From: Metabacillus halosaccharovorans
GTDB lineage: Bacteria > Bacillota > Bacilli > Bacillales > Bacillaceae
Length of the DNA: 64,000 bases
Reading direction: 5' to 3'
Assembly: GCF_002019635.1 (NCBI RefSeq)
Contig: NZ_KV917372.1
Location: 1,922,001-1,986,000 of the forward strand
Part shown: one piece after another, positions 11,025 through 56,671 of the stretch
How the letters are laid out: every line of letters starts with the position of its first letter
Numbering within the stretch: the stretch's first letter is position 1
Position numbers and translations under genes: made by a program
Notes under the pieces: model-generated
Database searches by the model: none
The model's input: the letters and a program-made list of their open reading frames with translations, nothing else
Told to the model about the DNA's origin: nothing

Positions 11025-11052
11025 TTTATATAAATACTTGTGAGAAAAGAGC

Positions 11053-34844: not shown

Positions 34845-34878
34845 TTATATATATCGTACTCTAAAGGGGGATTTATCT

Positions 34879-35937: not shown

Positions 35938-35995
35938 TTAGGTTAAATAATTTATCTAACAAAATAGACTAAACTTTAAGTAGGTGTACCTTTTT

Positions 35996-38579: not shown

Positions 38580-38625
38580 CTTTACATTTCCCCTCCAGAT
38601 TGATATTGTAAAGTACTTGTAAAAT

Positions 38626-38664
38626 GAAAAGGAACAGGCACTAGTTAAGTGATTGTTCCTTTTC
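38626..38664 (-). terminator. Stem-loop terminator between binding-protein and glycosidase genes
   Basis: GAAAAGGAACA (38626-38636) / TGTTCCTTTTC (38654-38664) with extra pairing in the loop; T-rich on the minus-strand 3' side. Expected to be leaky, giving more binding protein than glycosidase. Confidence 0.65.
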
Positions 38665-38680
38665 CATTTCAAAAAATTAA

Positions 38681-39946: not shown

Positions 39947-40056
39947 TTGGATCTCCCCTTGTTTGTTTAATGAAAAATATTTTTCTCTCTTAAAACTTGT
40001 ATATTAAAAGTAATAGAACATAAAATTTAAATCATTGTATTCTATTACCATCAATC

Positions 40057-40884
40057 CTAACCTTTTACTGCTCCACCAAAACCATTCACAAAATGTTTCT
40101 GGAAGATAAGATAGACAAGAAGAACAGGTAAAACCGATAATAGAACACCTGACATCATTAGCGGATAATTTGTAGAATACTCGCCTTTGAATGACATGAT
40201 TCCTGTTGTAATTGTTTTAAGTTCATCCGATGTCAAGAAAATTTGAGCTAACAGAAATTCATTCCATGTTGCCAAAAAGTCTAAAATGACTAGAGTTGAA
40301 ATGGCTGGTAATGCTACTGGTAAAATAATTCTCAGGAATAAAAAGAGGTCACTGCACCCATCTATTCTAGCTGCCTCATCTAATTCATTAGGAATTCCTT
40401 TAAAAAATCCATATAAAATTAAAGTTGCCATTGGTATACCAAAGCCTATATAGATAAAGATTAATCCAACGTGTGTATCCATTAGATTCACCTTATTTAA
40501 CATAATAACCAACGGGACTAAACAAGCCTGAAATGGGATTGTCATTCCTAAGATAATAAACAAATAGACGGGTTTTTCCCATTTAAAGTTAAGACGAGTT
40601 AGACCAAACGCCGCTAACGCAGCCACAAAAATACCTAGTGGAACTTTAATGACGGAGATGATCAGACTATTCTTCATATACATCCCTAAATTTCCTTCTT
40701 TCCAAGCTTCCACAAAATTTCCCCATTGAAATTCTTCCGGCAGGGCATACAGTGGATTCCCGAATAAATCGCCATTGGATTTTAGTGAAGTTAAGAATAG
40801 AAAGAACACGGGTATTAACCAGACCAAAGCAAACGAAGTAATAAAGATATAAAATAACAACCTAGACGGTTTCAACTTTTTCAC
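40057..40884 (-). CDS. Sugar ABC transporter permease (MalG/LacG type)
   Basis: 275 residues, six membrane spans, EAA loop LDEAARIDGCSDLFLFLRIILP and C-terminal NGFGGAVKG. The start GTG at 40884 lies eight bases after the upstream permease stop with GAGGGAG immediately before it; a TTG at 40875 has better spacing and cannot be excluded. Partner of the 40893-41828 permease. Confidence 0.93.
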   Translation of the reverse strand: MKKLKPSRLLFYIFITSFALVWLIPVFFLFLTSLKSNGDLFGNPLYALPEEFQWGNFVEAWKEGNLGMYMKNSLIISVIKVPLGIFVAALAAFGLTRLNFKWEKPVYLFIILGMTIPFQACLVPLVIMLNKVNLMDTHVGLIFIYIGFGIPMATLILYGFFKGIPNELDEAARIDGCSDLFLFLRIILPVALPAISTLVILDFLATWNEFLLAQIFLTSDELKTITTGIMSFKGEYSTNYPLMMSGVLLSVLPVLLVYLIFQKHFVNGFGGAVKG

Positions 40885-40892
40885 ACTCCCTC

Positions 40893-41828
40893 TTAAACAT
40901 GTGATTTTTTACCTTGCCATAAAATATATGGTACAGCTATGATCATAACCAGGAATAATAGAATCATAGATATAGCAGAACCAGTTCCAACATTATTTAA
41001 CGTAAATCCTTGATAATACATCCATGAAGCTAAAACTTGTGTACTATGTGACGGTCCACCACCAGTCATCGCATAAATGATGTCAAACACTCTCATTGAA
41101 TAAAATAACGTTGTAGCAAAAACAATAATAAATGTTTCTCGCAAAAGCGGTAATGTGATATTGTAAAATGCTTGAAAACTATTTGCTCCATCTACTTTTG
41201 CTGCTTCAAACGGCTCTTTCGACATTGATTGTAATCCTGCTAAGAAAATAACCATTGAACTTCCTACATGTTGCCATGTCGCAGCAATAAATACGGCATA
41301 TAAAGCAATTTTTGGATCCGCTAACCATGGAATGCTATCAATTCCTACCTTATTAAGTAATTCATTTAGCAACCCCATATTTGGGTGATAAATCCATACC
41401 CAGATGATCGCAACAACGATATTTGATAGAATAAATGGAAAATAGAAAACAGCTCTAAACAACGCTCTACCTTTAAAACTTTTATTTAGCATTAATGCTA
41501 GTAAAAGTGCAAATCCCATACTAAAAACTAATGACAAGACAGTCCAGATAACATTATTTTTCAACCCTTTTAAAAATACGGTGTCATTTGTAAATAAGTT
41601 AATATAATTACCGAAACCTACAAAGATTTTCTCAACAGAAACACCATTCCATTCAAAGAGACTAAGATAAAAAGTATAAAATGTAGGTATTACGATAACA
41701 GTTATATAAATAATTAGAGCCGGAAGCATATACAATATCGGCTTCAAAGTCCGTTTTAATTCCGTCTTTCTTACTATTTTTTGTGGACTTGAAATAGGTA
41801 CACTTTTTTCTATTACTTCTTGTTTCAT
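40893..41828 (-). CDS. Sugar ABC transporter permease (MalF/LacF type)
   Basis: 311 residues, Lys-rich N-terminus of about 25 residues then six spans; EAA loop PFEAAKVDGANSFQAFYNIT followed by LPLLRET; FDIIYAMTGGGPSHSTQVLA is the typical MalF-side motif. AGGAGGGG precedes the ATG. First gene of its importer, about 260 bp downstream of the YesN-like gene 42088, with a cre-like site and terminator between. Confidence 0.95.
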   Translation of the reverse strand: MKQEVIEKSVPISSPQKIVRKTELKRTLKPILYMLPALIIYITVIVIPTFYTFYLSLFEWNGVSVEKIFVGFGNYINLFTNDTVFLKGLKNNVIWTVLSLVFSMGFALLLALMLNKSFKGRALFRAVFYFPFILSNIVVAIIWVWIYHPNMGLLNELLNKVGIDSIPWLADPKIALYAVFIAATWQHVGSSMVIFLAGLQSMSKEPFEAAKVDGANSFQAFYNITLPLLRETFIIVFATTLFYSMRVFDIIYAMTGGGPSHSTQVLASWMYYQGFTLNNVGTGSAISMILLFLVMIIAVPYILWQGKKSHV

Positions 41829-42087: not shown

Positions 42088-43338
42088 TTAAGATCTCATT
42101 TTATATTCCTGTGGTGTTATTCCTACAGATTTTTTAAACACATGAGTAAAATGAGCTGGGTCATTATAACCGACTTGTTCGCAAACTTCGTAAATTTTTA
42201 ATGCAGGGTTCCTCAACAATTCCTTAGCTTTTTCAATACGCAGATTGATGAGATAGCTGGAAAAACTCTCGCCTGTTTCCTGTTTAAAAATTCTCCCAAG
42301 ATAAGTTGGATTCAAATAAACTTCTTCTGCTAATAATTTTAAGGTTAAATCCTCGAAGAGATAGGTTCTCATCTTCTCAAGTATAATTTCAATAACACGA
42401 CGGTTCTTTTTTCCTTCATATTTTTTTTCAAGTTGTTTAACTTTATCTGTATTTTGCTCGATATCTCCATAAAAGCTAATAGTAGAAACATTATTTTTTC
42501 TTGCTTCTTCCATGGCATACATACTTTCTTTATAACGGAAATGAAGTTCTGTTAAATTACTGCATGGAAAGCCAAATCCTATTAATAACTCAAATTTTAA
42601 CAGTGCACGAATTAGTTCATAAAGACGGCTCAATATTTCCTTATAAACCAGTCTTTTATCTTCACTATCATTAAAGAAAACAATAACAGCAATATGTTGT
42701 TCCTGAACAATGACATACGCTTTCCCAAAAGTAAGGAACCATTCCTCAATAATATTCTTAATTGCTGAATATGCATTAATCTCCACCCAACCCGCTTGAA
42801 GTGCGCTAGCTTCTTTTATACAACAGGTGAAGATCAATATTTCATTAAATCTAGGTATTAATTCATCATCATAAAGTGGGATAGGTAAACCAAAAAGTAG
42901 ATCGTCTAACCGTTTTTCTAGTATATCTCTTTCTCGTTTCTTTCTTAATCTATTTACATATTTCTCTTTCAAAATACAGTCTTCGATTTTTTCAATTGAT
43001 TCAAAAAGAGATTCAAAGGAACTGGGTTTTAAAAGATAATCAACTACTCCACACCTGAGAGCTTGCTGAGCATATCCAAAATCCTTGTATCCAGTTAATA
43101 GGATTACTTTTATATTAGAGAAATTCTCTTCAATATATTTACTTAATCCCAAACCGTCTACTGCAGGCATGCGAATGTCAGATATGACCAAATCAACTTC
43201 ATGCTTCTGTAGAATCGTAATGGCTTCTTCACCATCTTCAACAGCCGCTACTATCTCCCAGCTACTTTTTGCATCTTGAATCATTTCTTTAAGCGTCCGT
43301 AAGGCGAATGGTTCATCATCTACGAGCAATATTTTCAT
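42088..43338 (-). CDS. YesN-like AraC-type response regulator (short form)
   Basis: 416 residues: receiver domain (LLVDDEPFA; phospho-Asp in DLVISDIRMPAVDG; LLKPSSF) and a C-terminal AraC pair (LKLLAEEVYLNPTYLGRIFK, IYEVCEQVGYNDPAHFTHVF). It is some 100-125 residues shorter than the other two regulators in the window; the difference lies in the middle region, so the DNA-binding and receiver parts are whole. AGGAGGGG precedes the ATG, 20 bp after the kinase stop. Likely target: the ABC importer downstream. Confidence 0.93.
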   Translation of the reverse strand: MKILLVDDEPFALRTLKEMIQDAKSSWEIVAAVEDGEEAITILQKHEVDLVISDIRMPAVDGLGLSKYIEENFSNIKVILLTGYKDFGYAQQALRCGVVDYLLKPSSFESLFESIEKIEDCILKEKYVNRLRKKRERDILEKRLDDLLFGLPIPLYDDELIPRFNEILIFTCCIKEASALQAGWVEINAYSAIKNIIEEWFLTFGKAYVIVQEQHIAVIVFFNDSEDKRLVYKEILSRLYELIRALLKFELLIGFGFPCSNLTELHFRYKESMYAMEEARKNNVSTISFYGDIEQNTDKVKQLEKKYEGKKNRRVIEIILEKMRTYLFEDLTLKLLAEEVYLNPTYLGRIFKQETGESFSSYLINLRIEKAKELLRNPALKIYEVCEQVGYNDPAHFTHVFKKSVGITPQEYKMRS

Positions 43339-43358
43339 CTTACCCCTCCTCTGTTATC

Positions 43359-45119
43359 TCATTGTAGAAAAGGAATTACGAGCTGAACTTTAAGTCCTCC
43401 CAAAGAGCTAGAACTTAATTCAAGTTCATACTGATTACCATATATCAATTTGACCCGATGATGCAGGTTGGAAAGTCCAATTCCTGAATGCATCATTTTA
43501 TCGGTCTCAGATTCTAGATCTTCATTGTATTTCAAAGCATTTTCCATTTCTTCTTCGTTCATACCTTTTCCATTATCCTCTACAATGAATTTAACCATGT
43601 TGTCTTCCTTTGTAATGGAAATATTAATTAACCAATACTTTCTTTTTATACTCTCTAATCCATGGGTAATCGCATTTTCTACTAGGGGCTGTAGTAACAG
43701 CTTCATTACTGGAAATTCGAGAAGTTCTTCTTCCACATTCATCTTAATTTGCAGTTTATCTTCATAGCGATAACGTTGTAGTTCAATATAATGGTTTAAT
43801 TGCTTTAAATCTTCCTTTAGCCGTACAAATTCAGATCCAGGTTGGATACTATACCGCAGAAGTTCGCTTAATGACAATACCATCTCTGCAAGCTTGTTTT
43901 CCTTTTCACTTATTGCATAATAATAAATGGTATTGAGTGAATTGTATAAAAAATGAGGTTGAAATTGAGCTTTCATTGCGATTAGTTGTGCCTGTTTTTC
44001 TCTTATTTGTTTAAAAGACAAAATCCTTATTGTTTCTTCTAAATTTTCGATCATATGATTAAAGCTATCGTAAAGGACAGTAACCTCTCTATTATTCATT
44101 GTTCCTGTATAGGGTTTTAATTTTCCTCTTTTTAGATTAGACATGCGGGAAGCTAAATCTCTTATCGGCCTCGATAATGACCATGAGAAGAAGGAAGAAA
44201 ATAATAAAGAAGCAATAATTCCAAGAATCACGATAAAAAACGTACTATTTTTCATTCCTTTTAAATCCATTACGGCTTCTTCAACATCTATATAAGTAAC
44301 TACTGTCCAGTTACTATAGTTTGATGTGTAAGATGAGATATACACCGAATTTCCATCTATTTCCTCCTGTGTGATATTTCCATTATTTTTACTATCGTGA
44401 ACCTCTCCCAGGAAAGGACCGTCTATAATTTGGCCAAACTCACCTGAGTCAGTTGAGTACAATATACGTCCCGTTGAGTCAATAACCTGAACCTTATTAG
44501 AAGGATTTGCAAGGAAATTTCCAACAACATCCTCCGTAGCTTCAACTGGAATTACTGTTAGCATATAACCAATATTTTGAGATGGATGAGAATAATCTTT
44601 AATCTCTCTTACACCTAAAATGCCATGAATCAAATCCTCCGTTTCTATGTCATATAACATATTATTCGTTGTCCAGAACATCCCTCCAGCTGAATCAAGG
44701 AATGGATACCAATCCATCTGTTTAATATGAAATGGATGGTAGAATCCTCCTTCCCCTTGGTTGCCAACGAGTTCTACCAAAAATTCATTTCCAAGATAGG
44801 CCTGTTCATGCGTAATCACTTTTTGAACATTATAATCACGAACTTCTCGACCAAGTGGTTTTTCATTTATATTCTTTAAATATTCCTGCGTATCAGAATG
44901 TAAGGCAATCCTTAGCGAAAGACGGTCATATTCCTCTAGCATACGATCTATTTTCCCACTCATTTGAATAACCGACTCTAGTAAGTATTGTGATGTTTTA
45001 TTAACTACCACCTTAGAGGAAAACCGATAAGAAAAATAACTACTTATTGAGATGGTTATAATCATGATAATAGAAAATCCAATAATCATTTGTAATAATA
45101 TAGTAGGTTTTTGTTTCAT
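43359..45119 (-). CDS. YesM-like sensor histidine kinase
   Basis: 586 residues from ATG 45119 (MKQKPTIL), chosen because GGAGGAG lies right ahead. TM1 (about 8-30), extracellular sensor (to about 270), TM2 (about 274-296), HAMP (LSRPIRDLASRMSNLKRGKL), His-box MKAQFQPHFLYNSLNTIYYY (with FQP where the others have INP), ATPase motifs LLLQPLVENAITHGLE, DNGKGMN and GIGLSNLHHRV. Partner of 42088; adjacent to the DUF1593 gene. Confidence 0.93.
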   Translation of the reverse strand: MKQKPTILLQMIIGFSIIMIITISISSYFSYRFSSKVVVNKTSQYLLESVIQMSGKIDRMLEEYDRLSLRIALHSDTQEYLKNINEKPLGREVRDYNVQKVITHEQAYLGNEFLVELVGNQGEGGFYHPFHIKQMDWYPFLDSAGGMFWTTNNMLYDIETEDLIHGILGVREIKDYSHPSQNIGYMLTVIPVEATEDVVGNFLANPSNKVQVIDSTGRILYSTDSGEFGQIIDGPFLGEVHDSKNNGNITQEEIDGNSVYISSYTSNYSNWTVVTYIDVEEAVMDLKGMKNSTFFIVILGIIASLLFSSFFSWSLSRPIRDLASRMSNLKRGKLKPYTGTMNNREVTVLYDSFNHMIENLEETIRILSFKQIREKQAQLIAMKAQFQPHFLYNSLNTIYYYAISEKENKLAEMVLSLSELLRYSIQPGSEFVRLKEDLKQLNHYIELQRYRYEDKLQIKMNVEEELLEFPVMKLLLQPLVENAITHGLESIKRKYWLINISITKEDNMVKFIVEDNGKGMNEEEMENALKYNEDLESETDKMMHSGIGLSNLHHRVKLIYGNQYELELSSSSLGGLKVQLVIPFLQ

Positions 45120-45157
45120 ATCGCTCCTCCAGCTGCTGCATTGAATAATATGAAAAT

Positions 45158-45192
45158 AATCCTTATCTCCCTGAAAAAGGTAGATAAGGATT
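45158..45192 (-). terminator. Terminator after the DUF1593 gene
   Basis: Fifteen-base arms (45158-45172 / 45178-45192) with a single mismatch and a five-base loop; ATTTTC follows on the minus strand. It lies 56 nt past the DUF1593 stop and separates it from the kinase gene. Confidence 0.65.
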
Positions 45193-45247
45193 AACACAAA
45201 AATGAATGCTAATTTTTAAAGTTGTAGTTATAAAAGTTCTCCGACTT

Positions 45248-46771
45248 CTATCTTGAGACAGTTAATACTACCCTCTTGTATGATGTTAAAGGTTTATCAC
45301 CATTGTCCGTTGCTTCGAGAATAAAGTGTAGCGTTTGCCCATTAACAGCATCTGTAGGTACAGTAAATTGACTTATTACCTTGATCTCATCTTTTATTAA
45401 CTTTGCAATTTCTGGTGAACCTGGAGACGGAACAACAAATGGATAGAAATTCTCCGACTTAGTATTTTGTTCTTCCCCATCGGAAATTAAGTCTATCTGT
45501 CCAGGATAAGTACCTGCTTCCTCATATTGCCACCAGTGACCTGTAAGATTATCTCCATCTGGATCCTTAACAACCGCCTTTAAGATAATGGTTTGCCCAG
45601 GTCTAACAACTGTGTTCTCCAAGCCGACTACCTCGACAACTGGATGGTGATTTGCATCCTTATATTCCGGTGTAATAGTCCACTGCATCCTAGCTGCAAA
45701 GTCTCGTTGAGCAGCTCCGAACCAACGTGAGGAAGAATAGTCTTTTGAAGCCATGCCATTAGGATCAATGTCTTTGCCGTTTCTACCTCCCCAGCCACCA
45801 AAGCTTGCATCCACATGAGCATCAAGGCCATTGTCCAGGAGATTCATGTACATCGATGTGTCACCCTCGGATATCCAGGAACCGGGCTCTTCAACCCCAC
45901 CATACCACGGTATGTAACCGAGTTCCTTAAGTTGCTCTACAGTTACACCAGCAAATCCGAAAAAGTCAGTAATATCATTCTTATGCATTTGTTTTCCATC
46001 TCCCCAAACCATATAAAGCTCTCCGAAAGGTCCGACGTTGGATATATTTTCACGCGTCCATGCAGCTGAAAGAAAATGACGGTCCTCAGGTAGAACTACT
46101 CTACGTGCGGGGTATCCCCAGATTGATGTTGCCATTTCACGAAATTCAATATCTGGCCAAATTGGACCAATATAGGATTCGTAGACTCCATCTTGATCAC
46201 CAAATGACTGGATGACTACCTTTTTGGCAATCTTTTCATAAATATTCTTCCATTGACTACTATTCTTGTATTCCTCTTCAATTGACTTCAGAGCCCTTCC
46301 GATCGTTGATTGGCCCGCTCCCGTTAACAAGTATAATTTGCCCGGCTTATCATCTAGAATCAATTCCTTGATGAGATCTGATCCTGGACTGTCCTTTGAA
46401 ATGTCTCCTGGAAATTCCACATTGCCCTCATAAATCCGGGAGCGTAACTCATCAGGGTGTGGGTAACCTTCTGCATGAACCAAAAGATTCGGATACACTT
46501 CGGCGTAGGCTTCGACAGCATCCTCCATAAAGCATGAGCCCTCATCCCATCGCCATTGAGGAATCGGTCCTATTCCAAGCTGAGAATGTTCAGACTCCCC
46601 ACTGAATAATGTACCCTTGCCGTCACCCTTCCAATGAAATCGACTACTTGAATAAATCAGTCCTTCTGTTTCAAATTGATGACTGTAGAGCAGATATCGA
46701 ATGATCGTATTAAGATCATCAAGCTCTGGGTCGTGCAAAACTACGGTACGAAGCTTCTTATCCCTAGTCAT
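45248..46771 (-). CDS. DUF1593 nucleoside-hydrolase-like protein with C-terminal Ig-like domain
   Basis: 507 residues. The N-terminal part has the nucleoside-hydrolase-like start VVLHDPELDDLNTIIRYLL (calcium-loop Asp residues), LYLLTGAGQSTIGRAL and the block from GPFGELYMVWGDGKQMHKND. The C-terminal 120 residues are a beta-sandwich (VRPGQTIILKAVVKDPDGDN) like the domain that ends Sde182-type cellulose-binding proteins. No signal peptide is visible. AGGAGAAGTG precedes the ATG. It is the second nucleoside-hydrolase-fold protein in this island and again sits beside sugar uptake genes. Substrate unknown; the family is described mostly by domain, not chemistry. Confidence 0.82.
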   Translation of the reverse strand: MTRDKKLRTVVLHDPELDDLNTIIRYLLYSHQFETEGLIYSSSRFHWKGDGKGTLFSGESEHSQLGIGPIPQWRWDEGSCFMEDAVEAYAEVYPNLLVHAEGYPHPDELRSRIYEGNVEFPGDISKDSPGSDLIKELILDDKPGKLYLLTGAGQSTIGRALKSIEEEYKNSSQWKNIYEKIAKKVVIQSFGDQDGVYESYIGPIWPDIEFREMATSIWGYPARRVVLPEDRHFLSAAWTRENISNVGPFGELYMVWGDGKQMHKNDITDFFGFAGVTVEQLKELGYIPWYGGVEEPGSWISEGDTSMYMNLLDNGLDAHVDASFGGWGGRNGKDIDPNGMASKDYSSSRWFGAAQRDFAARMQWTITPEYKDANHHPVVEVVGLENTVVRPGQTIILKAVVKDPDGDNLTGHWWQYEEAGTYPGQIDLISDGEEQNTKSENFYPFVVPSPGSPEIAKLIKDEIKVISQFTVPTDAVNGQTLHFILEATDNGDKPLTSYKRVVLTVSR

Positions 46772-46889: not shown

Positions 46890-47816
46890 TTACTTTTTTT
46901 CATCTGACATATAAACATCAACCAATACTTTTTCCTCAGGTTTTTTACCATCCTTCAAGAAGTCGTGTACATAATTAACAGCTTCAGAACCGATAAATTC
47001 AAAATCTTGTACAGCTGTTACTTCCATTTCTCCTTTATCTATTAAATCGTACGCTTCTTTCGCTCCATCAAAACCGATAACAATAATTCCATCATCTTGT
47101 CGTCCGGCCGTTTCAATTGCACGTGCTACTCCAACTGCCATTGTATCGTTTTGAGCAAATACCACATCAATATCATCATGTTTTGCTAAAAAATCTGACA
47201 TTGCACTTTCCGCAGGTGCCATTGAGAAATCACCAACTGCTGTGTCCAAAATTTCAAATTCACTATCCGGGTTTTGTTCTGGATCAATAACGCTTAAGAA
47301 GCCGCCCCCACGTTCTCGTTGTGGAGCTGTACCGATAATACCTTCAATATGAATGACCTTACCACCTTCAGGTAATTTTTCTTGTAACCATTCTCCTACA
47401 AGCTTTCCACCTTTTAAATTATCAGTCACTAAATATGATAAAACACCTTCTACATCTACTGATCTATCAACTGTTACAACAGGAATATCCTGTGCGATAG
47501 CATCCCTTAGAGCGTTTGCTGTCGACGATTCATCTCCAGGGTTGATTACGATAGCGCTTACTCCTTGTTGAAGGGCATCCTCTACTTGAGAAGGTTGCTT
47601 AGAAGGGTCATTTTGTCCATCGTAGACTAATACCTCATATCCTAGTTCTTCACCCTGTTCGACAACAGCATCACGAAGTACATGAAAGAAAGGGTTTCCT
47701 AAGTCAGCCATTAATAAAGCTATTTTTTCTTTTCCTCCATCTCCACTGGATTGATTGCTACATGCTACCATCATAAATGTCAAAATTGAAAGCAAAACTA
47801 ATAATAACTTCTTCAT
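46890..47816 (-). CDS. Pentose-type ABC solute-binding lipoprotein (RbsB family)
   Basis: 308 residues; lipobox MVAC then the RbsB-type fold: KIALLMADLGNPFFHVLRDA, EVLVYDGQNDPSKQPSQVED, IVINPGDESSTANALRDAI, VTVDRSVD, VVFAQNDTMAVGVARAIE, VIGFDGAKEAYDLIDKGEME. Such proteins bind monosaccharides (ribose, xylose, allose, apiose and others). AGGGGGAG precedes the ATG. Last gene of the pentose operon, after the matching permease (29 bp). Confidence 0.95.
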   Translation of the reverse strand: MKKLLLVLLSILTFMMVACSNQSSGDGGKEKIALLMADLGNPFFHVLRDAVVEQGEELGYEVLVYDGQNDPSKQPSQVEDALQQGVSAIVINPGDESSTANALRDAIAQDIPVVTVDRSVDVEGVLSYLVTDNLKGGKLVGEWLQEKLPEGGKVIHIEGIIGTAPQRERGGGFLSVIDPEQNPDSEFEILDTAVGDFSMAPAESAMSDFLAKHDDIDVVFAQNDTMAVGVARAIETAGRQDDGIIVIGFDGAKEAYDLIDKGEMEVTAVQDFEFIGSEAVNYVHDFLKDGKKPEEKVLVDVYMSDEKK

Positions 47817-47844
47817 TTTTTCTCCCCCTTAATAGTTAGCTGAA

Positions 47845-48843
47845 TTATCTAGAACTCTTACGATCCAAAATCACCGCAAGGAGTATCACTAGCCCTTTAA
47901 TGAATTGCTGATAGAATGCAGATACACCGATAATATTTAATCCATTATTTAGTACACCGATAATAAGGACTCCAATTAATGTTCCAAATAACCTTCCTTT
48001 TCCACCCGCTAAGCTAGTACCACCAATAACAACTGCTGCAATAGCGTCTAGTTCAAAGCCAGCACCAGCAGTAGGTTGTGAAGAACTTAGACGGGATGTC
48101 AATATAACACCAGCTAACGCAGACATAACACCACTTATAATATATACTGATGTTTTAATTCGATCTGTTGGTAATGAAGATAATCTTGCAACTTCTTCAT
48201 TTCCACCGATAGCATATACGCCTCTACCAAAGACTGTTTTTTGGAGTATTATTAACAATAGGGCAAAGACAACAAGAAGAATAATCATCGGAAATGGAAT
48301 ACCCAAAATATCCCCTTGGCTAAAGAAATTTAATATTGGAGAATTCTCTGTTATACCCATTGCTGGAATACCATCAGAAATAATCATCGTTATCCCGCTA
48401 AACATCGTCATTGTTGCCAAAGTAACAATAAACGCCTGTAATTTAACTTTTGAGATAAGTACTCCATTAAACCATCCTAATAACGCTCCTAATAGCAACA
48501 CTAATGGAATTGCTATTAAATCAGGTGTACCTGACGCAACCATTAACCCTAACACCATTCCTGTTAAAGCTAAAATGGCACCTACTGATAAGTCTATTCC
48601 GCCGGTTAGAATAACGAATGTCATTCCAAAAGCAATTAAACCATTTATTGAAACCTGACGGAAAACATTCAAAATATTATACATTGATAGAAACTTAGAA
48701 TTCATTATTGAAATAATTAATACTAATACAAATAGGGCAATTACAGTTCCATACTTCCGATATATATTACTAAGGTTAGCTTTTTCTTCACTCTCTCCAT
48801 GTACAGTTCCATTCTTTCGATAGATATTACCGAGATTAGCCAT
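47845..48843 (-). CDS. Pentose-type ABC permease (RbsC family) with duplicated N-terminal segment
   Basis: 332 residues from ATG 48843 (MANLGNIYRKNG), chosen for GGGAGGG and the one-base spacing to the ATPase stop. About ten membrane spans; VTLATMTMFSGITMIISDG and AIAAVVIGGTSLAGGKGRLFG are RbsC hallmarks. Residues 2-14 (ANLGNIYRKNGTV) are repeated at 20-32 (ANLSNIYRKYGTV); the DNA shows the same short tandem duplication. The first copy is an extra cytoplasmic extension. Confidence 0.94.
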   Translation of the reverse strand: MANLGNIYRKNGTVHGESEEKANLSNIYRKYGTVIALFVLVLIISIMNSKFLSMYNILNVFRQVSINGLIAFGMTFVILTGGIDLSVGAILALTGMVLGLMVASGTPDLIAIPLVLLLGALLGWFNGVLISKVKLQAFIVTLATMTMFSGITMIISDGIPAMGITENSPILNFFSQGDILGIPFPMIILLVVFALLLIILQKTVFGRGVYAIGGNEEVARLSSLPTDRIKTSVYIISGVMSALAGVILTSRLSSSQPTAGAGFELDAIAAVVIGGTSLAGGKGRLFGTLIGVLIIGVLNNGLNIIGVSAFYQQFIKGLVILLAVILDRKSSR

Positions 48844-48844
48844 T

Positions 48845-50329
48845 TTATATCCCTCCCACTGCAGCATATTGCATGACACTTTCTTGTGTTGCTTCGTCTC
48901 GATTAAAAATCTTCACTAACTTTTTCTCATGCATCACTGCAATGCGATCACAAATACCAAGTATTTCAGGCAATTCACTTGATACAATAATAATTGCTAC
49001 ACCAGCCTTTTTTAATTGATTAATAATTTCATAGATTTCCTTCTTCGCACCAACATCAACACCGCGTGTAGGTTCATCCAGGATAAGTATTTTGGGATTC
49101 GTTATTAGCCATTTGGCTATGACAATTTTTTGTTGATTTCCCCCACTTAGCTTTCCAACTGAAATTTCCTGGCTTGCTGTTTTTACCTTTAGCTTTCCGA
49201 TGAACTCTTCTACCATACTTCTTATAGATCTATCTTCTATTAGTTTATTATTCGCAAATGAAGATAAAGATGGTAAGGCCATATTATCCCTAACTGAAAA
49301 ATCTAAGATTAGTCCTTCATTTTTTCGATCTTCTGTAATAAAACCAAGTCCCATTCGTTTTGCGACAATAGGGGAACTAATATTAACCTTTTTTCCACTT
49401 ATGTGAATTTCTCCTGAATCAAATTTGGTACTACCAAATATAGCATGCATAACTTCTGTTCTTCCTGAACCCATAAGTCCTGAAAAACCTAAAATTTCTC
49501 CCTTTCTAACATCGAAACTGACATTCTCAAATTTACCTTTTTGAGACAAATCTTTAACTGATAGTATGGTTTCACCAGGAGAGATTTCAATCCTCGGGAA
49601 CCGTTCATCTAAATCGTAGCCTACCATCATACTTACGATTTCATCGAAAGAGGTCTCCTTAATTGTTTTTTGACCAATATAGGCACCATCCCGCATAATG
49701 GTAATTTCATCACAAATGTCAAAGATTTCTTCCATTCGATGTGATATATAAACAAAAGAAACCCCTTTATCTCTTAGTTCCCTGATAATTTTAAATAATA
49801 AGGCTATCTCTTTATCGGTTAATGCAGCAGTAGGTTCATCCATGATAATAAGCTCTGCATCCATTAATAATGCTTTTGCTATCTCTACAAGCTGGCGACT
49901 TCCTATAGAAATATCTTTAATAAGTGTGCTTGGATCAATGTCTAAGCCCAGCATTTGAAGCTTTTCCTTTGCTATTTTAACCATTGCTTTCTTATCTATT
50001 AGGCCTAATTTATTCTTTTTTTCCTTACCCAAAAACATATTATCCACAATACTCATTTCGTTTAAAACATTGAGTTCTTGATGAATAAAAGCAATTTTTT
50101 TATTTTCACTATCCTTTATACTAGTTAACTCAAAAAGTTCTCCGTTTATTTCTATATCTCCGGTGTCCTTTGTATAGACACCTGTTAGTATTTTCATTAA
50201 AGTAGACTTACCTGCTCCATTTTCACCCATTAATGCGTGTATTTCCTTTTCTTTCACATGGATCCCAGCATCTTTTAATACCTGAACAGCCCCAAAACTT
50301 TTGCAAATTCCACTCATTCTTAATTCCAT
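48845..50329 (-). CDS. Pentose-type ABC ATPase (RbsA family, two nucleotide-binding domains)
   Basis: 494 residues with tandem ATPase domains. First: Walker A GENGAGKSTLMK (34-45), Q-loop, ISIGSRQLVEIAKALL signature and LIIMDEPTAALT. Second: degenerate Walker A GLMGSGRTEVMH, intact signature KLSGGNQQKIVIAKWL and ILDEPTRGVDVG. This is the monosaccharide class, as for RbsA/XylG. A consensus cre site lies 28 bp upstream. The stop codon is one base from the permease start. Confidence 0.96.
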   Translation of the reverse strand: MELRMSGICKSFGAVQVLKDAGIHVKEKEIHALMGENGAGKSTLMKILTGVYTKDTGDIEINGELFELTSIKDSENKKIAFIHQELNVLNEMSIVDNMFLGKEKKNKLGLIDKKAMVKIAKEKLQMLGLDIDPSTLIKDISIGSRQLVEIAKALLMDAELIIMDEPTAALTDKEIALLFKIIRELRDKGVSFVYISHRMEEIFDICDEITIMRDGAYIGQKTIKETSFDEIVSMMVGYDLDERFPRIEISPGETILSVKDLSQKGKFENVSFDVRKGEILGFSGLMGSGRTEVMHAIFGSTKFDSGEIHISGKKVNISSPIVAKRMGLGFITEDRKNEGLILDFSVRDNMALPSLSSFANNKLIEDRSIRSMVEEFIGKLKVKTASQEISVGKLSGGNQQKIVIAKWLITNPKILILDEPTRGVDVGAKKEIYEIINQLKKAGVAIIIVSSELPEILGICDRIAVMHEKKLVKIFNRDEATQESVMQYAAVGGI

Positions 50330-50356
50330 ATTCCCACCCCATTTCTATCCACTTGT

Positions 50357-50370
50357 TGTTAGCGGTTACA
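50357..50370. promoter_or_regulatory. Consensus cre site between kinase gene and rbsA-like gene
   Basis: Minus strand TGTAACCGCTAACA matches TGWAANCGNTNWCA at every position. It lies in the 141-bp gap inside the operon, 28 bp before the ATPase ATG. It suggests a CcpA roadblock, or a separate, CcpA-controlled promoter for the importer. Confidence 0.7.
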
Positions 50371-50470
50371 AAAACTTTGTCTAGAATATAGTTAATAAAA
50401 GCACTCTCATTAAGGGCAACTCTAAATTTCTTATTAATCATACAAAACACATAAGTAACCCTTTATTTGA

Positions 50471-51958
50471 TCATTTAACTAAAACGCTCTTTACCGATTC
50501 TTGCCAACCTTGATAATAACGATCTCTCAACTCACTTGAAATAACTGGTTGATATTTCTTACTTTCCTGATTTAGCCGTTGTATCTCATCAATCGAATTC
50601 CATATCCCAACACCTAATCCAGCTAAGTACACAGATCCTAATGAAGAAAGTTCTGCCACTAGTGAAACAACAACATCACTTCCAATCATGTCAGCTTGGT
50701 ACTGCATTAAAAATGAATTACTTGTCGCACCACCGTCTACTTTTAACTCTTTTATCTCAATGTTTGATTCATTTTTCATTAATTCAATAGCGTCAGATAC
50801 TTGATAGGTGATACTTTCTAACGCTGCACGAATAATATGTGCCTTCCCTGAATTTCGATTCATTCCCAAGATGGCAGCTCGTGCATATGGATTCCAATAA
50901 GGTGCACCTAAACCAACAAATGCAGGAACTAAGTATACGCCTTGATTATCCGGGATAGAAGTTGCGAGAGATTCAACCTCTGAGAAATCACTAAATAACT
51001 CAAGATCCTCTTTCACCCACTTCAGAACATCACCCGTGCTATTGATAATCCCCTCAAGTGCATAACTTACTTCACCATCAATCACCCATGCAACAGATGT
51101 AACTAAACCATTTTGTGCATTTACTAAATGACCAGTATTCATCATGACAGAAGTACCCGTACCATAGGTTGCTTTTGCCATTCCTTTTTCAAAGCACTTT
51201 TGTCCAAATAAGGCGCCCTGTGAATCACCTATGATTCCCGAGATCGGTAATCCTAAAAAAGAAAGATTAGGATCATTTACTCTACCAAAAATATCATTTG
51301 AGCTTTTCACCTCTGGTAGCATTGTTTTCGGGATATTGAATATCTCTAATAATTCATCGTCCCAAGCAAGGGTATGAATATTAAATAGAAGTGTTCTACT
51401 TGCATTTGTATAATCAGTTGCATGAACGCTTCCACCCGTTAACTTCCAAATTAACCAACTATCTATCGTTCCAAGTAATAGTTTTCCTTCATTTGCTTTT
51501 TCTCTTGCACCTTCAACATGATCTAAAATCCAACTTATCTTTGACGCAGAAAAATAAGGGTCAATCGTTAAGCCTGTTTTAGATTGGATTTTATCTTCAA
51601 ATCCTTTTTCTTTTAAGCCCTTACAAGAATCAGATGTTCTTCTACATTGCCATACGATTGCATTATAAACAGGAATTCCTGTTTCCTTATCCCAAACGAC
51701 AATGGTTTCCCTTTGGTTTGTTAAAGCCAACACTTTATATTGATTAAGAGAAACAGAGGCAAATTGAACAACCTCTGTTATCACATGTTTTACATTTTCA
51801 TAGATTTCTATTGGATCATGCTCAACCCACCCTGACTCTGGATAGTATTGTTTATGGGCTAGCGCAGTTTTATGTGTAATTTCTCCATCTGAATTTACAA
51901 CTAAAGCTTTTGTACCTGATGTGCTTTGATCGATCGCAAGTATATAGTTTGTTGTCAT
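50471..51958 (-). CDS. FGGY-family carbohydrate kinase
   Basis: 495 residues of the actin/hexokinase fold: phosphate loop ILAIDQSTSGTKALVV, catalytic-Asp region GIIGDSQGALFGQ, adenosine motif LKVDGGATSNSFLMQYQADM. Closest in feel to glycerol and pentulose kinases. Position between transketolase subunits and importer suggests that it phosphorylates a ketose made by the isomerase (e.g. apulose, ribulose or xylulose). The start ATG has a GAGGGAT site. It follows the transketolase C-subunit by 13 bp. Exact substrate not readable. Confidence 0.88.
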   Translation of the reverse strand: MTTNYILAIDQSTSGTKALVVNSDGEITHKTALAHKQYYPESGWVEHDPIEIYENVKHVITEVVQFASVSLNQYKVLALTNQRETIVVWDKETGIPVYNAIVWQCRRTSDSCKGLKEKGFEDKIQSKTGLTIDPYFSASKISWILDHVEGAREKANEGKLLLGTIDSWLIWKLTGGSVHATDYTNASRTLLFNIHTLAWDDELLEIFNIPKTMLPEVKSSNDIFGRVNDPNLSFLGLPISGIIGDSQGALFGQKCFEKGMAKATYGTGTSVMMNTGHLVNAQNGLVTSVAWVIDGEVSYALEGIINSTGDVLKWVKEDLELFSDFSEVESLATSIPDNQGVYLVPAFVGLGAPYWNPYARAAILGMNRNSGKAHIIRAALESITYQVSDAIELMKNESNIEIKELKVDGGATSNSFLMQYQADMIGSDVVVSLVAELSSLGSVYLAGLGVGIWNSIDEIQRLNQESKKYQPVISSELRDRYYQGWQESVKSVLVK

Positions 51959-51971
51959 ATCTATCCCTCGA

Positions 51972-52937
51972 TTAATTGTTATTCAATTGCAAAGCGATAT
52001 TTTTTACATTATCGACACTAATCCCATAATGCTTAAAGACTTCAGCAGTATTCCCAGTAATAGGAGGTTCATCTGGTATTCCAATGATTTTCAATGGAAC
52101 CGGTTGATGTTGAATGACCACTTCAGCAACAGCTGCACCTAAACCACCATGTATGCTGTGCTCTTCAATCGTAATAATTTTTCCAGTCTCACGCGCTGCT
52201 CTAATAATAGCTTCTTCATCTAAAGGCTTGATTGTGTGCATGTTGATTACTCTACAATTAATTCCTTCTTGTTCAAGTGCTTCTGCAGAGTCTAATGCTA
52301 CACGAACCGTTTCTCCACTAGCAATAATCGTTAAATCACTACCCTCTCTCATCGTAACCGCTTTACCAATTTCAAATTCGTATTCATCTGATACATAGGA
52401 ATCCTCTACTGGATTACGCCCAATTCTTACATAGGCTGGTCGGTCACTTTCAACTAAAGCTTCAATCATCTTCTTAGCTTCATGACGATCTGCAGGCATC
52501 ATCACATCAAGGCCAGGTATCGCACGTGTTACTGCTATATCTTGTAAGGAGTGATGTGACATACCAAGCGCACCGTAACTAACTCCTCCACTTATCCCGA
52601 TCAACTTTACATTTGTTTGCGAATAGGCAACATCTACTTTAATTTGTTCAATACTTCTCATACTTAAGAAACAAGCTGGTGAAGCAATAAACGGCTTTTT
52701 ACCAGAATGAGCCAACCCAGATGCCATCCCAACAATATTTTGTTCAGCAATTCCAACCTCAACAATTTGTTCTGGCAATTCTTTTCCAAACTGTACCATT
52801 GAAGCAGAGCCTCTAGAATCGCTTGTTAGCACTAATAGATCTTTATCTTTTTTACCAAGTTCTAATAATATTTCACTAATCGCCTGGCGATTGGCTATTT
52901 TATTACCTTTTGATGTTTTCACTGCAACATTTTTCAT
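51972..52937 (-). CDS. Transketolase, C-terminal subunit (pyrimidine-binding and C-terminal domains)
   Basis: 321 residues corresponding to the second half of a transketolase or DXS-like enzyme. The Pyr domain has VLTSDSRGSASM and the catalytic Glu in VGIAEQNIVGMASG (Glu65), GGVSYGALGMSHHSLQDIAV and PADRHEAKKM; the C-terminal domain has GEEHSIHGGLG-like IEEHSIHGGLGAAV. Its ATG overlaps the stop of the N-subunit gene by four bases, a sign of translational coupling into a two-subunit enzyme. Such split transketolases include apulose-4-phosphate transketolase. Confidence 0.9.
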   Translation of the reverse strand: MKNVAVKTSKGNKIANRQAISEILLELGKKDKDLLVLTSDSRGSASMVQFGKELPEQIVEVGIAEQNIVGMASGLAHSGKKPFIASPACFLSMRSIEQIKVDVAYSQTNVKLIGISGGVSYGALGMSHHSLQDIAVTRAIPGLDVMMPADRHEAKKMIEALVESDRPAYVRIGRNPVEDSYVSDEYEFEIGKAVTMREGSDLTIIASGETVRVALDSAEALEQEGINCRVINMHTIKPLDEEAIIRAARETGKIITIEEHSIHGGLGAAVAEVVIQHQPVPLKIIGIPDEPPITGNTAEVFKHYGISVDNVKNIALQLNNN

Positions 52938-53764
52938 ACTAAAACCTCCAATTGTTTTGAAAGTTCCTCCATAGCTAGGTTATATTCTTCTTCAGTTGGA
53001 ACGCGGTGATGCCAGCCTACTTGATTTTCAGCAAACGAAATTCCTTTTCCTTTTACTGTATTAGCTAGGATTAATGTTGGTTTCCCTGGAGTTTTTGGAG
53101 TATGACTGAATACATTAACTAGTTCTTTCACATCATTTCCTTCTACTTCAACAACTTCCCATCCAAAGCTTCTCCATTTATCTCCAAGTGGTTCAAGACC
53201 CATGACATCTTCTGTGGTATTCGTAATTTGCAGGCGATTTCGGTCAATAATTGCCGTTAAATTATCCAGTTTATATTGTGAAGCTGCCATCGCACCTTCC
53301 CATACAGAGCCCTCAGCCTGCTCTCCGTCTCCCATTAAGGTATAAACCCGATAAGATTTTCCATCCATCTTAGCAGCTAAAGCCATACCAACCGAAATTG
53401 GTAAACCGTGCCCCAATGAACCTGTATTCATCTCAATGCCAGGTACTTTATTATTCGGATGCCCAATTAGCCTGGAATTAAATTTCGAAAATGTTTTTAG
53501 TTCTTCTTTCGGAAAGAAGCCTTTATCAGCTAAAATAGCCCATAAAGACTCAACTGAATGTCCTTTACTTTGAACATAACGATCACGCTCTTCCCAATTT
53601 GGATTGTTTGGATCAATGTTCATAATCTTGTAATAAAGAACAGTTAAAATATCAGTGTTTGATAACGAGCCACCCGTATGACCTGTTCTTGCCTCATAGA
53701 TCATCGTTAATAGTGATTTTCTAATTTCTATCGCCTTTCTTTTCAAAAATGCAATCTCTTCCAT
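52934..53764 (-). CDS. Transketolase, N-terminal (thiamine-diphosphate-binding) subunit
   Basis: 276 residues from ATG 53764 (MEEIAFL), with GGGAGGG eight bases ahead; an upstream start would fall in that site. The PP domain shows HTGGSLSNTDILTVLYY, SKGHSVESLWAIL, NTGSLGHGLPISVGMA and the ThDP/Mg motif GDGEQAEGSVWEGA (145-158) followed by DRN. It transfers two-carbon units together with the C-subunit downstream. Coupled by overlap to that subunit and 28 bp from the isomerase. Confidence 0.9.
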   Translation of the reverse strand: MEEIAFLKRKAIEIRKSLLTMIYEARTGHTGGSLSNTDILTVLYYKIMNIDPNNPNWEERDRYVQSKGHSVESLWAILADKGFFPKEELKTFSKFNSRLIGHPNNKVPGIEMNTGSLGHGLPISVGMALAAKMDGKSYRVYTLMGDGEQAEGSVWEGAMAASQYKLDNLTAIIDRNRLQITNTTEDVMGLEPLGDKWRSFGWEVVEVEGNDVKELVNVFSHTPKTPGKPTLILANTVKGKGISFAENQVGWHHRVPTEEEYNLAMEELSKQLEVLV

Positions 53765-53791
53765 AATAAGAACCCTCCCATTTTTCACAAT

Positions 53792-55228
53792 TTATTTGTT
53801 AAGATCACTACCACGTAACCATGCTCTAATTTCATTTTCTGTCGGATCAACCGGGTCAGGTGTTAAACCAGGAATATACTCACATGCCTCAAATAGGACC
53901 GGGATTACGTTTGCATGAATTCCTACCGAATGATGAATATATGGGCCTTTAACTAATTTTTCTTCCCATAATGGCCAGTCATTTACCTCAACCCATACAT
54001 ATGAACCTCTGGTAAATGGTCCTTCAATTCCTTTTGCCTTCCCCAGAAAGATTGAATACTCTCCATGGTCTCCATCAAAACGAGCTAAAGTCATTTCTCC
54101 ACCTTTAATTTCACCTTCATGAGTTCCTGGAGAATGATCATCAAACAAAAAATGCTTGTTTAATTTTGGTTTTTCTTCTTTACTTAGTGAAACAGGGAAG
54201 TTCCCACAATGGAACAATAATTCACCATTTGGATTCTCAGGATGACGAACCGTGATGTCGGCAAAAAATGTTGGATGCGTATTTAATGTTGCTGCTTGAA
54301 CCATAATTGATGTAATCGCTCCATGGATATCTGTTTCACAAGTAACTGGAATTTGTTCATCCGTTAAAATTGCATTTGCTAAGCAAGGCATGATGCCAAT
54401 AATATCTTGTAGTGTTGACCAACATTGGATGGCAATCGCTGTACTCCTTGTATCTTCAGCCAACTGTTTCATGGCTACTTTTAATGATGCAATTCGTCTA
54501 ACATCTTCTTCAGTCACTGAGCTCCAATCAAGCTTTTCCTTGATATAATTCATAGCCTCATCTAATTCAGGACTATCCGTCTTTTCTATTTTTAACGTTG
54601 TTTTCTTTAACTCATCTAGAGTGATAGGATGGATTTGAATACCAAATGTCTCTAATAACTCACCCTCGTTGCAAATAACTGACCAGAAATCAGAAGGTCG
54701 AGTTGAAATCTGTAAAATTCTTAAACTACTAAAATGCTTAACTACATTTGCAGCACCAATGAAATTTTTAAAACCTCTCTCGAAGATTGGATCATCAACG
54801 CGGCAGTTCGTAATGTAAGTGAACTTTACATTAAATCGTCTTAAAACCTTCCCTGTTGCAAAGATTCCACATTGTGAATCACGAAGGCGCATACCATCTT
54901 CTAGTGGAGCTTCATCTCTAGGCCCCCAAAGCAATACCGGCTTTCCAATAGCCTTTGCCACACGAGCAACAATATCCTCAGTTCCAAAATTACAGTGAGG
55001 GAAAAACAGCGCATCCACTTCAGCATCTCTAAAACGTTTAATAATAGCAGGCTCTTCAAGGCGTTCATGTAATAGCCCTTCGTCGTTAATCCCCTCTAAA
55101 TCAACAATCTCAATATCCAATCCGAAGCTTTCAATTTTTTCTCTTATTAAGTTTTTGTATTTCAGTGCATCTTTTTTACTAAAAACAAATCGACGTGTAG
55201 GTGCAAAACCTAACTTTAATCTTTGCAT
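53792..55228 (-). CDS. L-fucose/L-arabinose-isomerase-fold sugar isomerase
   Basis: 478 residues with the FucI/AraA-like three-domain pattern. Domain 1: FAPTRR, VDALFFPHCNFGTEDIVARV, VLLWGPRDEAP; middle: DSQCGIFATGKVLRRFN. Metal-site candidates are Glu298 in TCETDIHGA, Asp324 in FADITV and a His in HHSVGIH (432-438), matching the Glu/Asp/His set of FucI. At 478 residues it is shorter than FucI (about 590). GGAGGTAA precedes the ATG. First gene of the pentose operon behind a sigma-A promoter with operator-like repeats. It likely turns an aldose into the ketose used by the kinase; the aldose is not known (D-apiose, L-fucose and D-arabinose are candidates). Confidence 0.82.
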   Translation of the reverse strand: MQRLKLGFAPTRRFVFSKKDALKYKNLIREKIESFGLDIEIVDLEGINDEGLLHERLEEPAIIKRFRDAEVDALFFPHCNFGTEDIVARVAKAIGKPVLLWGPRDEAPLEDGMRLRDSQCGIFATGKVLRRFNVKFTYITNCRVDDPIFERGFKNFIGAANVVKHFSSLRILQISTRPSDFWSVICNEGELLETFGIQIHPITLDELKKTTLKIEKTDSPELDEAMNYIKEKLDWSSVTEEDVRRIASLKVAMKQLAEDTRSTAIAIQCWSTLQDIIGIMPCLANAILTDEQIPVTCETDIHGAITSIMVQAATLNTHPTFFADITVRHPENPNGELLFHCGNFPVSLSKEEKPKLNKHFLFDDHSPGTHEGEIKGGEMTLARFDGDHGEYSIFLGKAKGIEGPFTRGSYVWVEVNDWPLWEEKLVKGPYIHHSVGIHANVIPVLFEACEYIPGLTPDPVDPTENEIRAWLRGSDLNK

Positions 55229-55299: not shown

Positions 55300-55317
55300 A
55301 ACTAAACCTTTTTAGTT
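55300..55317. promoter_or_regulatory. 18-bp operator-like inverted repeat, promoter-proximal copy
   Basis: AACTAAACCTTTTTAGTT, placed just downstream of the -10 of the isomerase-operon promoter. Same spacing and half-site AACTAA...TTAGTT as at 55376. Probable LacI paralogue B operator. The gap 55229-55579 also holds a cre-like site (55276-55289), with one mismatch. Confidence 0.6.
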
Positions 55318-55579: not shown

Positions 55580-56671
55580 ATGAGACTAGATGATATCGCT
55601 AAATTAGCAAATGTTTCAAAATCAGCTGTTTCTTTAGCTTTAAATGGAAAAAATGGTGTGAGTGAAGAAACTCGAGATAAAATAGTCAAAATCGCACAAG
55701 AACACGGGTATATTCCACGTCCGATTCTAAAAGCTGAGCAATACTTTCAGACCCGAAATAAATTATTAAGGTTTGTAGCTTGTACAAACTCAGGAATTGT
55801 GACGGAACACTATGAATCACTTCCTTTTTTTATGGAGCTAATAAATAATATTGATAAACAGGTTAACCCCAGCGGATATTCCTTATTAGTAACATCAGTT
55901 GACATTAATATGTTAAAAGAAGAATTAACAAGACTTGAGCAAGAGCAACCATCTTCAGGTATTTTATTATTGGGAACAAACTTAACACCTGAACAAATCA
56001 ACATAGTATCGACTATTCAACAAAATTTAGTTGTTCTCGATACTTGCTTTGAAACATTAAATACCAATTTTATTGTAATGAATAATGTCCATGGGGCATA
56101 TTTAGCAGGAAGGCATCTTATTGAATTAGGGCACAGTGAAATTGGTTATATAGAGTCTAATTCAAGAATGTATAATTTCGAAATGAGAAAAATAGGGTTT
56201 TTACAGTCACTTAGTGAACATGGTTTAGAAATTAAGAACGAAAATGTATTTTTTCTATCACCAACAACCATTTCCTCCCAGGATGTCTTTATAGAAAAGA
56301 TAAAAAAGCGTTCACACAATCTTCCTACAGCTTTGTTTTGTGAAGCAGACTATATTGCAATTAGCGTGATTAAATCACTACTTGAGTTAGGAATTCGTGT
56401 ACCTGATGAGATATCGGTAATAGGATTTGATAATATTTTTGAATCCCAGGTTATTACTCCAGAATTAACAACTATTCATGTAAAGAAAGAAAAGATGGCT
56501 GCAATAGCAGTTGAACAACTTATTAATCAAATCGAAAATAACGATTTTGATCGAATAAATATGTTTATTGATACTGAATTAGTGGTAAGAAAATCCAGTA
56601 CTTTTTATAAAAATGAAAATATGACTGATGAAGTAAAACCTAATAAAATTTCTAGTACTTTAATAAACTAG
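55580..56671 (+). CDS. LacI-family transcription regulator (paralogue B)
   Basis: 363 residues; DDIAKLANVSKSAVSLALNG helix-turn-helix, hinge HGYIPRP and LacI effector domain with GILLLGTNL, ELGHSEIGYIES, FCEADYIAISVIKSL and VIGFDNIFESQVITPELTTI. Sister of the protein at 35996, differing mainly in the effector domain and in a 16-residue C-terminal tail. GGCAGGAG precedes the ATG. It is divergent from the pentose operon across a region full of AACTAA/TTAGTT repeats, and is the probable repressor of that operon. Followed by the shortened terminator copy. Confidence 0.95.
   Translation: MRLDDIAKLANVSKSAVSLALNGKNGVSEETRDKIVKIAQEHGYIPRPILKAEQYFQTRNKLLRFVACTNSGIVTEHYESLPFFMELINNIDKQVNPSGYSLLVTSVDINMLKEELTRLEQEQPSSGILLLGTNLTPEQINIVSTIQQNLVVLDTCFETLNTNFIVMNNVHGAYLAGRHLIELGHSEIGYIESNSRMYNFEMRKIGFLQSLSEHGLEIKNENVFFLSPTTISSQDVFIEKIKKRSHNLPTALFCEADYIAISVIKSLLELGIRVPDEISVIGFDNIFESQVITPELTTIHVKKEKMAAIAVEQLINQIENNDFDRINMFIDTELVVRKSSTFYKNENMTDEVKPNKISSTLIN

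Follow-up and report, generated by a model that had tools for sequence, protein, structure and literature searches.

Apiose as a plant sugar and the known routes of its breakdown

Apiose is a regular constituent of the cell walls of higher plants, where it occurs in rhamnogalacturonan II, and many flavonoid glycosides contain it as well. In the known catabolic route, a transketolase step yields xylulose 5-phosphate together with dihydroxyacetone phosphate. Apiose pathways were reportedly first described by Carter et al. 2018, whose paper may already include some of the loci discussed below. Here, we analysed a stretch of 64,000 nucleotides ("the window") from the 5.4 Mb Bacillus-like genome of Metabacillus halosaccharovorans (contig NZ_KV917372.1, positions 1,922,001 to 1,986,000), focusing on a cassette on its minus strand in which the genes for an isomerase, the N- and C-terminal subunits of a transketolase (TK-N and TK-C), a kinase and the proteins RbsA, RbsC and RbsB of an ATP-binding cassette (ABC) importer follow one another in this order. 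From the comparisons we conclude that D-apiose is the best-supported substrate, which the cassette probably breaks down. Judged from sequence, the best reading is a variant apiose operon of Bacillota with another isomerase clade and another transketolase, rather than an orthologue of the Enterobacterales operon, and most likely its first enzyme is a different version from that of the known apiose pathways. Among the matches listed for apiose terms, the titles and the opening lines of the abstracts held no description of this operon.

Carriers of the apiose clusters of E. coli and Pectobacterium grew on D-apiose (PMC13001218). The cluster of E. coli SE15 (ECSF_RS02670-02715) has no isomerase gene. 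Using its kinase as query, we retrieved operons on plasmids of Sodalis, Rahnella and Klebsiella (pINF102.2), which encode a binding protein, a DUF2291 protein, an ATPase, a permease, a regulator, a two-part transketolase, an isomerase and a kinase; the isomerase is labelled "fucose isomerase" in the Rahnella record and otherwise "L-fucose/L-arabinose isomerase family". Another Klebsiella plasmid carries an apiose cluster of the E. coli type without an isomerase. The Enterobacterales pathway (ApsI, AplK, AptA/AptB, a CUT2-type ABC importer and DUF2291) and the window cassette have in common an isomerase of the AraA/FucI family (absent from E. coli), a GlpK-clade kinase with two serines in the pocket, a two-part transketolase and an RbsABC-like importer. 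In contrast to the Enterobacterales operons, the window type has an isomerase of another clade (27% identity), a transketolase that is not specially related (38-48%), an exchangeable importer, apiosidase-like genes alongside and a LacI-family regulator, where the Enterobacterales records name a "sugar-binding transcriptional regulator".

In the proposed pathway, the isomerase would convert D-apiose to apulose, and the GlpK-derived kinase, whose pocket is presumably opened by the changes Gln246>Ser and Phe270>Ser, would phosphorylate apulose to apulose 4-phosphate. The two-part transketolase would then transfer a two-carbon unit to glyceraldehyde 3-phosphate, which would produce xylulose 5-phosphate as well as dihydroxyacetone phosphate. 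Apiose probably enters the cell in part as apiose-bearing oligosaccharides through a second ABC importer encoded in the window, from which the adjoining apiosidase-like enzyme may free the sugar inside the cell (Table 1), and RbsABC may import free apiose, ribose or both. The divergently encoded LacI protein probably controls the cassette, as its position suggests.

The kinase has an altered glycerol pocket

The window kinase resembles GlpK in overall sequence, reaching 627.6 bits against the glycerol kinase model TIGR01311 and thus exceeding the cut-off of 590.35; AplK, with 495 bits and under the cut-off, is itself a member of the GlpK clade. In E. coli GlpK and in both GlpKs of the window genome, the glycerol pocket is formed by R83, E84, W103, Y135, D245, Q246 and F270, and Phe270 is among the five signature residues of GlpK (PMC3245297). 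This pattern, REWYDQF, was found in all 33 GlpK rows that we compared (E. coli, two from the window genome and 30 high-scoring loci, to which the GlpK-like match G080 with 581 bits does not belong), so that Gln246 and Phe270 were always kept. The window kinase, however, reads REWYDSS, i.e. Q246S and F270S, and lacks the glycerol pocket of GlpK. The same pattern was present in 84 of 89 rows for kinases of the compared loci, the others being four of the AplK type REWLDSS and one plain GlpK (L150). For this count, rows outside 420-620 amino acids or below 250 bits were excluded; the 89 rows contain repeats (Listeria, Monoglobus, L133 and L146, as well as L061, whose row equals that of the window). 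The AplK proteins of E. coli, Sodalis, Rahnella and Klebsiella have the same two serines plus a leucine at position 135, where the window kinase keeps Tyr135.

In a quick tree of a 32-kinase subset of the compared loci, one of them the plain GlpK of L150, GlpK (97), the cassette kinases (85) and AplK (100) formed three separate groups. The original prediction had proposed a comparison of the kinase with characterised relatives, and its outcome supports that prediction in part: the kinase groups neither with XylB-like kinases nor with GlpK, and it has the pocket changes of AplK. A plain glycerol kinase was ruled out by the pocket residues and the tree. In the Listeria and Monoglobus records the cassette kinase is labelled "glycerol kinase", which fits because it passes the glycerol kinase cut-off, and the isomerase is named by its superfamily alone. 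If our reading is true, serines at GlpK positions 246 and 270 would provide a residue rule that denotes an apulose kinase rather than a glycerol kinase, and genes of many soil bacteria that are usually labelled as glycerol, fucose or general sugar enzymes would receive corrected names.

The enzyme genes are conserved while their partners are exchanged

The order isomerase, TK-N, TK-C, kinase was complete in 78 of 80 named loci (L numbers designate these and the further loci compared), the two others being cut by contig ends; 78/80 is not an unbiased rate, since the 80 loci are the most similar of 558 confirmed relatives. A divergent relative of the LacI protein was located at a distance of up to 4 kb in 59 of the 80. 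The closest named relative of the isomerase is from Bacillus sp. J37 (100%), and the carriers of the cassette include Bacillus, Paenibacillus, Cohnella, Thermoanaerobacterium, Listeria and the pectin degrader Monoglobus. At two loci, an isomerase of the ApsI clade is joined to window-type enzymes: L149 combines it (44% to Rahnella) with a window-type TK-N (59%), TK-C (55%) and kinase (48%) and also has an apiosidase-like gene according to our own profile, and L147 combines it (47% to Rahnella) with a window-type kinase. If both isomerase clades serve one sugar, one would expect the isomerase and the importer to be swapped while kinase and transketolase stay the same.

An importer of the apiose-operon type accompanies the cassette in 7 of the 80 named loci and an RbsB-type importer in 5, and at the remaining loci neither was found in the DNA examined around them. 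The binding proteins of those 7 loci and of L140 are 57-67% identical to the one of the Rahnella apiose operon, which itself is 44% identical to that of E. coli (L159 284-1225 and L057 12009-12944, respectively). In the pocket, for which we used 15 ribose-binding positions of RbsB, they differ from the Rahnella protein at one to three positions. The Rahnella-type pocket is as in E. coli RbsB at 11 of the 15, and the apiose protein of E. coli has a very different pattern, which deviates from the Rahnella one at most positions. Pocket patterns thus separate the types poorly, and whole-protein identity is the better argument. Among solved structures, the E. coli apiose binding protein is closest to a Rhizobium protein (5ibq, 4ry0; 270 bits), which was reportedly crystallised with ribose and with apiose; a binding protein that accepts both would reconcile the ribose-type findings described below with apiose. 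As a side observation, the binding protein of the E. coli apiose type goes together with two short-chain dehydrogenase/reductase (SDR) genes and no isomerase; its ligand may be a different form of the sugar, or the alignment may be wrong.

Apiosidase-like genes are enriched around the cassette

The 49 genomes reached through the named loci contain 130 matches to PF13204 (Pfam name Apiosidase) in 361 Mb, and in at least 23 of them such a gene lies no more than 10 kb from the isomerase, where 0.38 were expected. The number of 23 is a lower bound because only places detected by our own profile were compared with the PF13204 matches, and the binomial value for this enrichment assumes independent loci, which the related Paenibacillus are not. 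The own profile matches 30 of the 80 loci (31 with L077), those outside L073-L123 by profile alone; the match at L077 was dropped, its genome having no PF13204 match. The strict PF13204 type (300-314 bits) is present at L094, L100, L110, L114-L116 and L121, and a weaker DUF5060-like type occurs as well. In Listeria, where the operon order is isomerase-TK-TK-kinase-PTS-PF13204 (PTS, phosphotransferase system), a strict member (313 bits) directly follows the PTS gene. In a set of 60 genomes, comprising the window's own and relatives, PF13204 was found in 8, namely in all 7 whose isomerase is at least 93% identical and in 1 of the 53 others; this association is weak alone, because all 8 carriers belong to one genus. 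The hydrolase of the window has its first methionine at codon 32 and no obvious signal peptide by eye, and is probably cytoplasmic. Should the apiose reading hold, candidate new apiosidases would be indicated by these genes.

The window further encodes two nucleoside-hydrolase-like proteins, one Sde182-like (Table 1) and one of the IU type (34816-35838), and we regard such proteins near the cassette as candidate apiofuranosidases. Sde182-like or IU-type genes recur near the cassette at L058, L061, L067, L069, L072, L073, L077, L079, L083, L088, L102, L108, L113, L117, L119, L120, L129 and L130. A nucleoside-hydrolase-like gene is the next co-directional open reading frame (ORF) past the kinase at L079, L083, L088, L113, L117 and L119, and at L129 it lies between transketolase and kinase. 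PF07632 exceeded its cut-off in 24 of the same 49 genomes, with a strong Sde182-type gene near the cassette, according to our own profile, only at L077; an enrichment of the Sde182 type (1 of 49 loci) was not pressed as an argument.

Findings that weigh against D-apiose and alternative substrates

Several findings weigh against D-apiose as the substrate, and they are set out here together with the alternatives that they would favour. The original prediction had named D-apiose or a similar rare pentose; the kinase pocket, the apiose-type importers and the apiosidase-like neighbours support this, whereas the transketolase, the isomerase clade and the ribose-like RbsB do not. Furthermore, PF13204 is a broad family, of which the window copy is a weak member (69.8 bits), the quick tree did not resolve the branching order of the cassette, AplK and GlpK kinase groups, and the Sodalis, Rahnella and Klebsiella operons are themselves tied to apiose by their similarity to the E. 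coli and Pectobacterium clusters.

With regard to the importer, the window RbsB is as in E. coli RbsB at 13 of the 15 pocket positions and hence ribose-like, and it is the sole close RbsB of the genome (next 34%). It is 28-29% identical to the apiose-operon binding protein of Rahnella and 25% to that of E. coli, so that the comparison proposed in the original prediction did not place it in the apiose-operon type. RbsABC thus has the pocket of a ribose operon, yet all three proteins stay under the NCBIfam ribose cut-offs. These features would suit the catabolism of D-ribose or D-arabinose, in which the isomerase would produce D-ribulose, the kinase would produce D-ribulose 5-phosphate, the transketolase would add pentose-phosphate capacity and RbsABC would import ribose. 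Ribokinase genes adjoin the cassettes of L065 and L149, which points in the same direction, as does the ribose plus D-arabinose operon of Thermotoga, which we take to be a counterpart of the cassette. The ribose operons of T. maritima, T. neapolitana and T. lettingae were described as containing two predicted D-arabinose enzymes and a transketolase, and expression of the T. maritima operon rose 14- to 92-fold on ribose and to a similar extent on xylose (PMC3750489). Like the window, the RbsR operon of T. maritima encodes a ribose-type ABC importer, two further sugar enzymes, a transketolase and a LacI-family regulator, but unlike the window it is annotated for ribose and D-arabinose and has a ribokinase (PMC3750489). 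No ribokinase is encoded in the window operon, and the only one over the cut-off in the genome lies elsewhere, on another contig (C1:841966). Since, in addition, the RbsB type accompanies the cassette in just 5 of the 80 named loci as opposed to 7 for the apiose-operon importer, apiosidase-like genes are strongly enriched nearby and the kinase has the pocket changes of AplK, we consider ribose or D-arabinose an unlikely substrate. The T. maritima genome holds a PF13204 match besides the ribose operon with its transketolase, which fits a reading as ribose plus apiose.

The two-part form of the transketolase is common to the window cassette and the apiose operons. Its TK-N is 46-48% identical to the AptA type and its TK-C 38% to the AptB type, the latter lying within or below the 36-48% seen for two-part transketolases of Bacillota outside such cassettes (among the matches listed). 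Judged by these identities, AptAB are not nearer relatives of the transketolase than the generic two-part enzymes listed, and as evidence for apiose the transketolase does not discriminate. The order of the reactions might also differ, in that the transketolase would cleave the unphosphorylated ketose and the kinase would phosphorylate the three-carbon remainder (dihydroxyacetone or glyceraldehyde) in the manner of a glycerol kinase; the sugar could then still be apiose. The score of the kinase over the GlpK cut-off is in line with such a scheme, and the sulfo-transketolase SqwGH, which follows a separate isomerase, acts on a sugar that is not phosphorylated (PMC9594981). However, Gln246 and Phe270, the second of which is a signature residue of GlpK (PMC3245297), are kept in the 33 GlpK rows and lost in the window-type cassette kinases compared, which makes this scheme quite improbable.

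The window isomerase has the AraA/FucI fold, as do the isomerases of the apiose operons; a sequence search of the PDB returned no relative, and the fold was taken from an AlphaFold2 (AF2) model and a fold match. The doubt expressed in the original prediction, whether apiose isomerases share a FucI-like fold, is settled by the Sodalis, Rahnella and Klebsiella pINF102.2 operons, in which a protein of the "L-fucose/L-arabinose isomerase family" adjoins the AplK homologue; by this operon position we infer that it is ApsI. Nevertheless, the window isomerase is only 27% identical to these ApsI-type proteins and falls into a clade of its own (83/99, as against 100/99 for the ApsI clade), and is thus not orthologous to ApsI as named by operon position. 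Among 398 Bacillota genomes drawn as a sample, 10 other than the window's own had an isomerase with 51-65% identity. For 9 of these 10 the surroundings were examined: a window-type transketolase and kinase are present at 4 (L140, L142, L143, L146), and neither lies beside the isomerase at 5 (L138, L139, L141, L144, L145). Because of the latter, the window clade may serve another sugar or more than one.

Another branched or rare sugar could be processed by the same chemistry, and isomerase orthologues without a transketolase do adjoin other genes, e.g. for fructose-6-phosphate aldolase at L145, but the binding proteins and the apiosidase-like genes point to apiose, and we rate this as very improbable. 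At L145, a window-clade isomerase (50%, 9986-11404) is found beside fructose-6-phosphate aldolase (292 bits, above the cut-off; genes L145:8570-9860) without a transketolase, together with a protein that is RpiB-like by eye, which hints at another pathway. A sulfoquinovose operon of the sulfo-transketolase type (SqvD, SqwGH), which employs an isomerase of the same superfamily and a transketolase (PMC9594981), was ruled out, since the only NCBIfam match of the isomerase, to the sulfoquinovose isomerase SftI (NF048012), reaches 108.2 bits against a cut-off of 700, a true SftI is encoded elsewhere in the genome (822.6 bits; C1:1112835-1113917, L154), and the window has an extra kinase, whereas the available part of the source names no FGGY kinase for that pathway (PMC9594981).

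Returning to D-apiose, a wider scenario is conceivable, which we put forward tentatively and hold to be doubtful as a whole. D-apiose isomerases would have arisen twice, the window-type clade being a second, deeply diverged family; Bacillota would have built their own apiose operon from this isomerase, the Ser-Ser kinase and a two-part transketolase, mixing with Enterobacterales parts; the nucleoside-hydrolase-like proteins would be new apiofuranosidases, and the Thermotoga operon would serve ribose plus apiose.

Layout of the cassette and further features of the window

A single minus-strand run of isomerase, two-gene transketolase, kinase and RbsABC importer, as originally predicted, was confirmed by the ORFs of the window (Table 1). 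The spacing among the four enzyme genes is 3, -4 and 13 bases, which bears out the predicted 4-bp overlap of the two transketolase genes. Past RbsB, the minus strand continues with the genes for the Sde182-like protein, a sensor kinase and a response regulator, two permeases, an oligosaccharide-type binding protein and the DUF5060-PF13204-DUF5605 hydrolase.

Table 1 Features of the cassette and its surroundings in the window, with the evidence for their assignment.
Feature	Coordinates	Strand	Evidence
Aldose isomerase, AraA/FucI fold, proposed D-apiose isomerase (non-ApsI clade)	53792..55228	-	AF2 model, fold match; 27% to ApsI-type
Transketolase N-terminal subunit, likely start codon 9	52934..53788	-	Pfam Transketolase_N; 46-48% to AptA-type
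Transketolase C-terminal subunit	51972..52937	-	Pfam Transket_pyr and Transketolase_C; 38% to AptB-type
GlpK-clade FGGY kinase, altered glycerol pocket, proposed apulose kinase	50471..51958	-	TIGR01311 above cut-off; pocket REWYDSS, not REWYDQF; group outside GlpK
RbsA-type ABC ATPase	48845..50329	-	NCBIfam RbsA 597.5 bits, under cut-off 745
RbsC-type permease	47845..48879	-	NCBIfam ribose permease 354.7 bits, under cut-off 398
RbsB-type binding protein, ribose-like pocket	46890..47816	-	NCBIfam RbsB 226.8 bits, under cut-off 337; E. coli ribose-binding protein in PDB, 186 bits
LacI-family regulator, divergent from isomerase	55580..56671	+	Pfam LacI and Peripla_BP_3
DUF5060, apiosidase-like (PF13204) and DUF5605 hydrolase	37107..38672	-	Pfam; start inspection
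Oligosaccharide-type ABC importer: binding protein, MalG-like and MalF-like permeases	38681..41828	-	ORFs, named from sequence; co-directional with cassette
Two-component AraC-type response regulator and sensor kinase	42088..45197	-	ORFs, named from sequence
Sde182-like protein, nucleoside-hydrolase-like domain	45248..46771	-	Pfam PF07632, 186 bits

Two LacI-family regulators, the divergent one at 55580-56671 and another at 35984-37033, look alike by eye and bracket the run from apiosidase to isomerase. Palindromes at 55300-55317 and 34758-34786 occur once each, where 0.04 occurrences were expected; no regulon was built from them, because the patterns were picked after reading the sequence and did not recur. 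Just past the right end of the window, at about 1988000-1990000 of contig C2 (L155), a second two-part transketolase (TK-N 48%, TK-C 41%) adjoins an SDR gene and genes for a tripartite ATP-independent periplasmic (TRAP) importer, which represents another sugar locus of the same genome.

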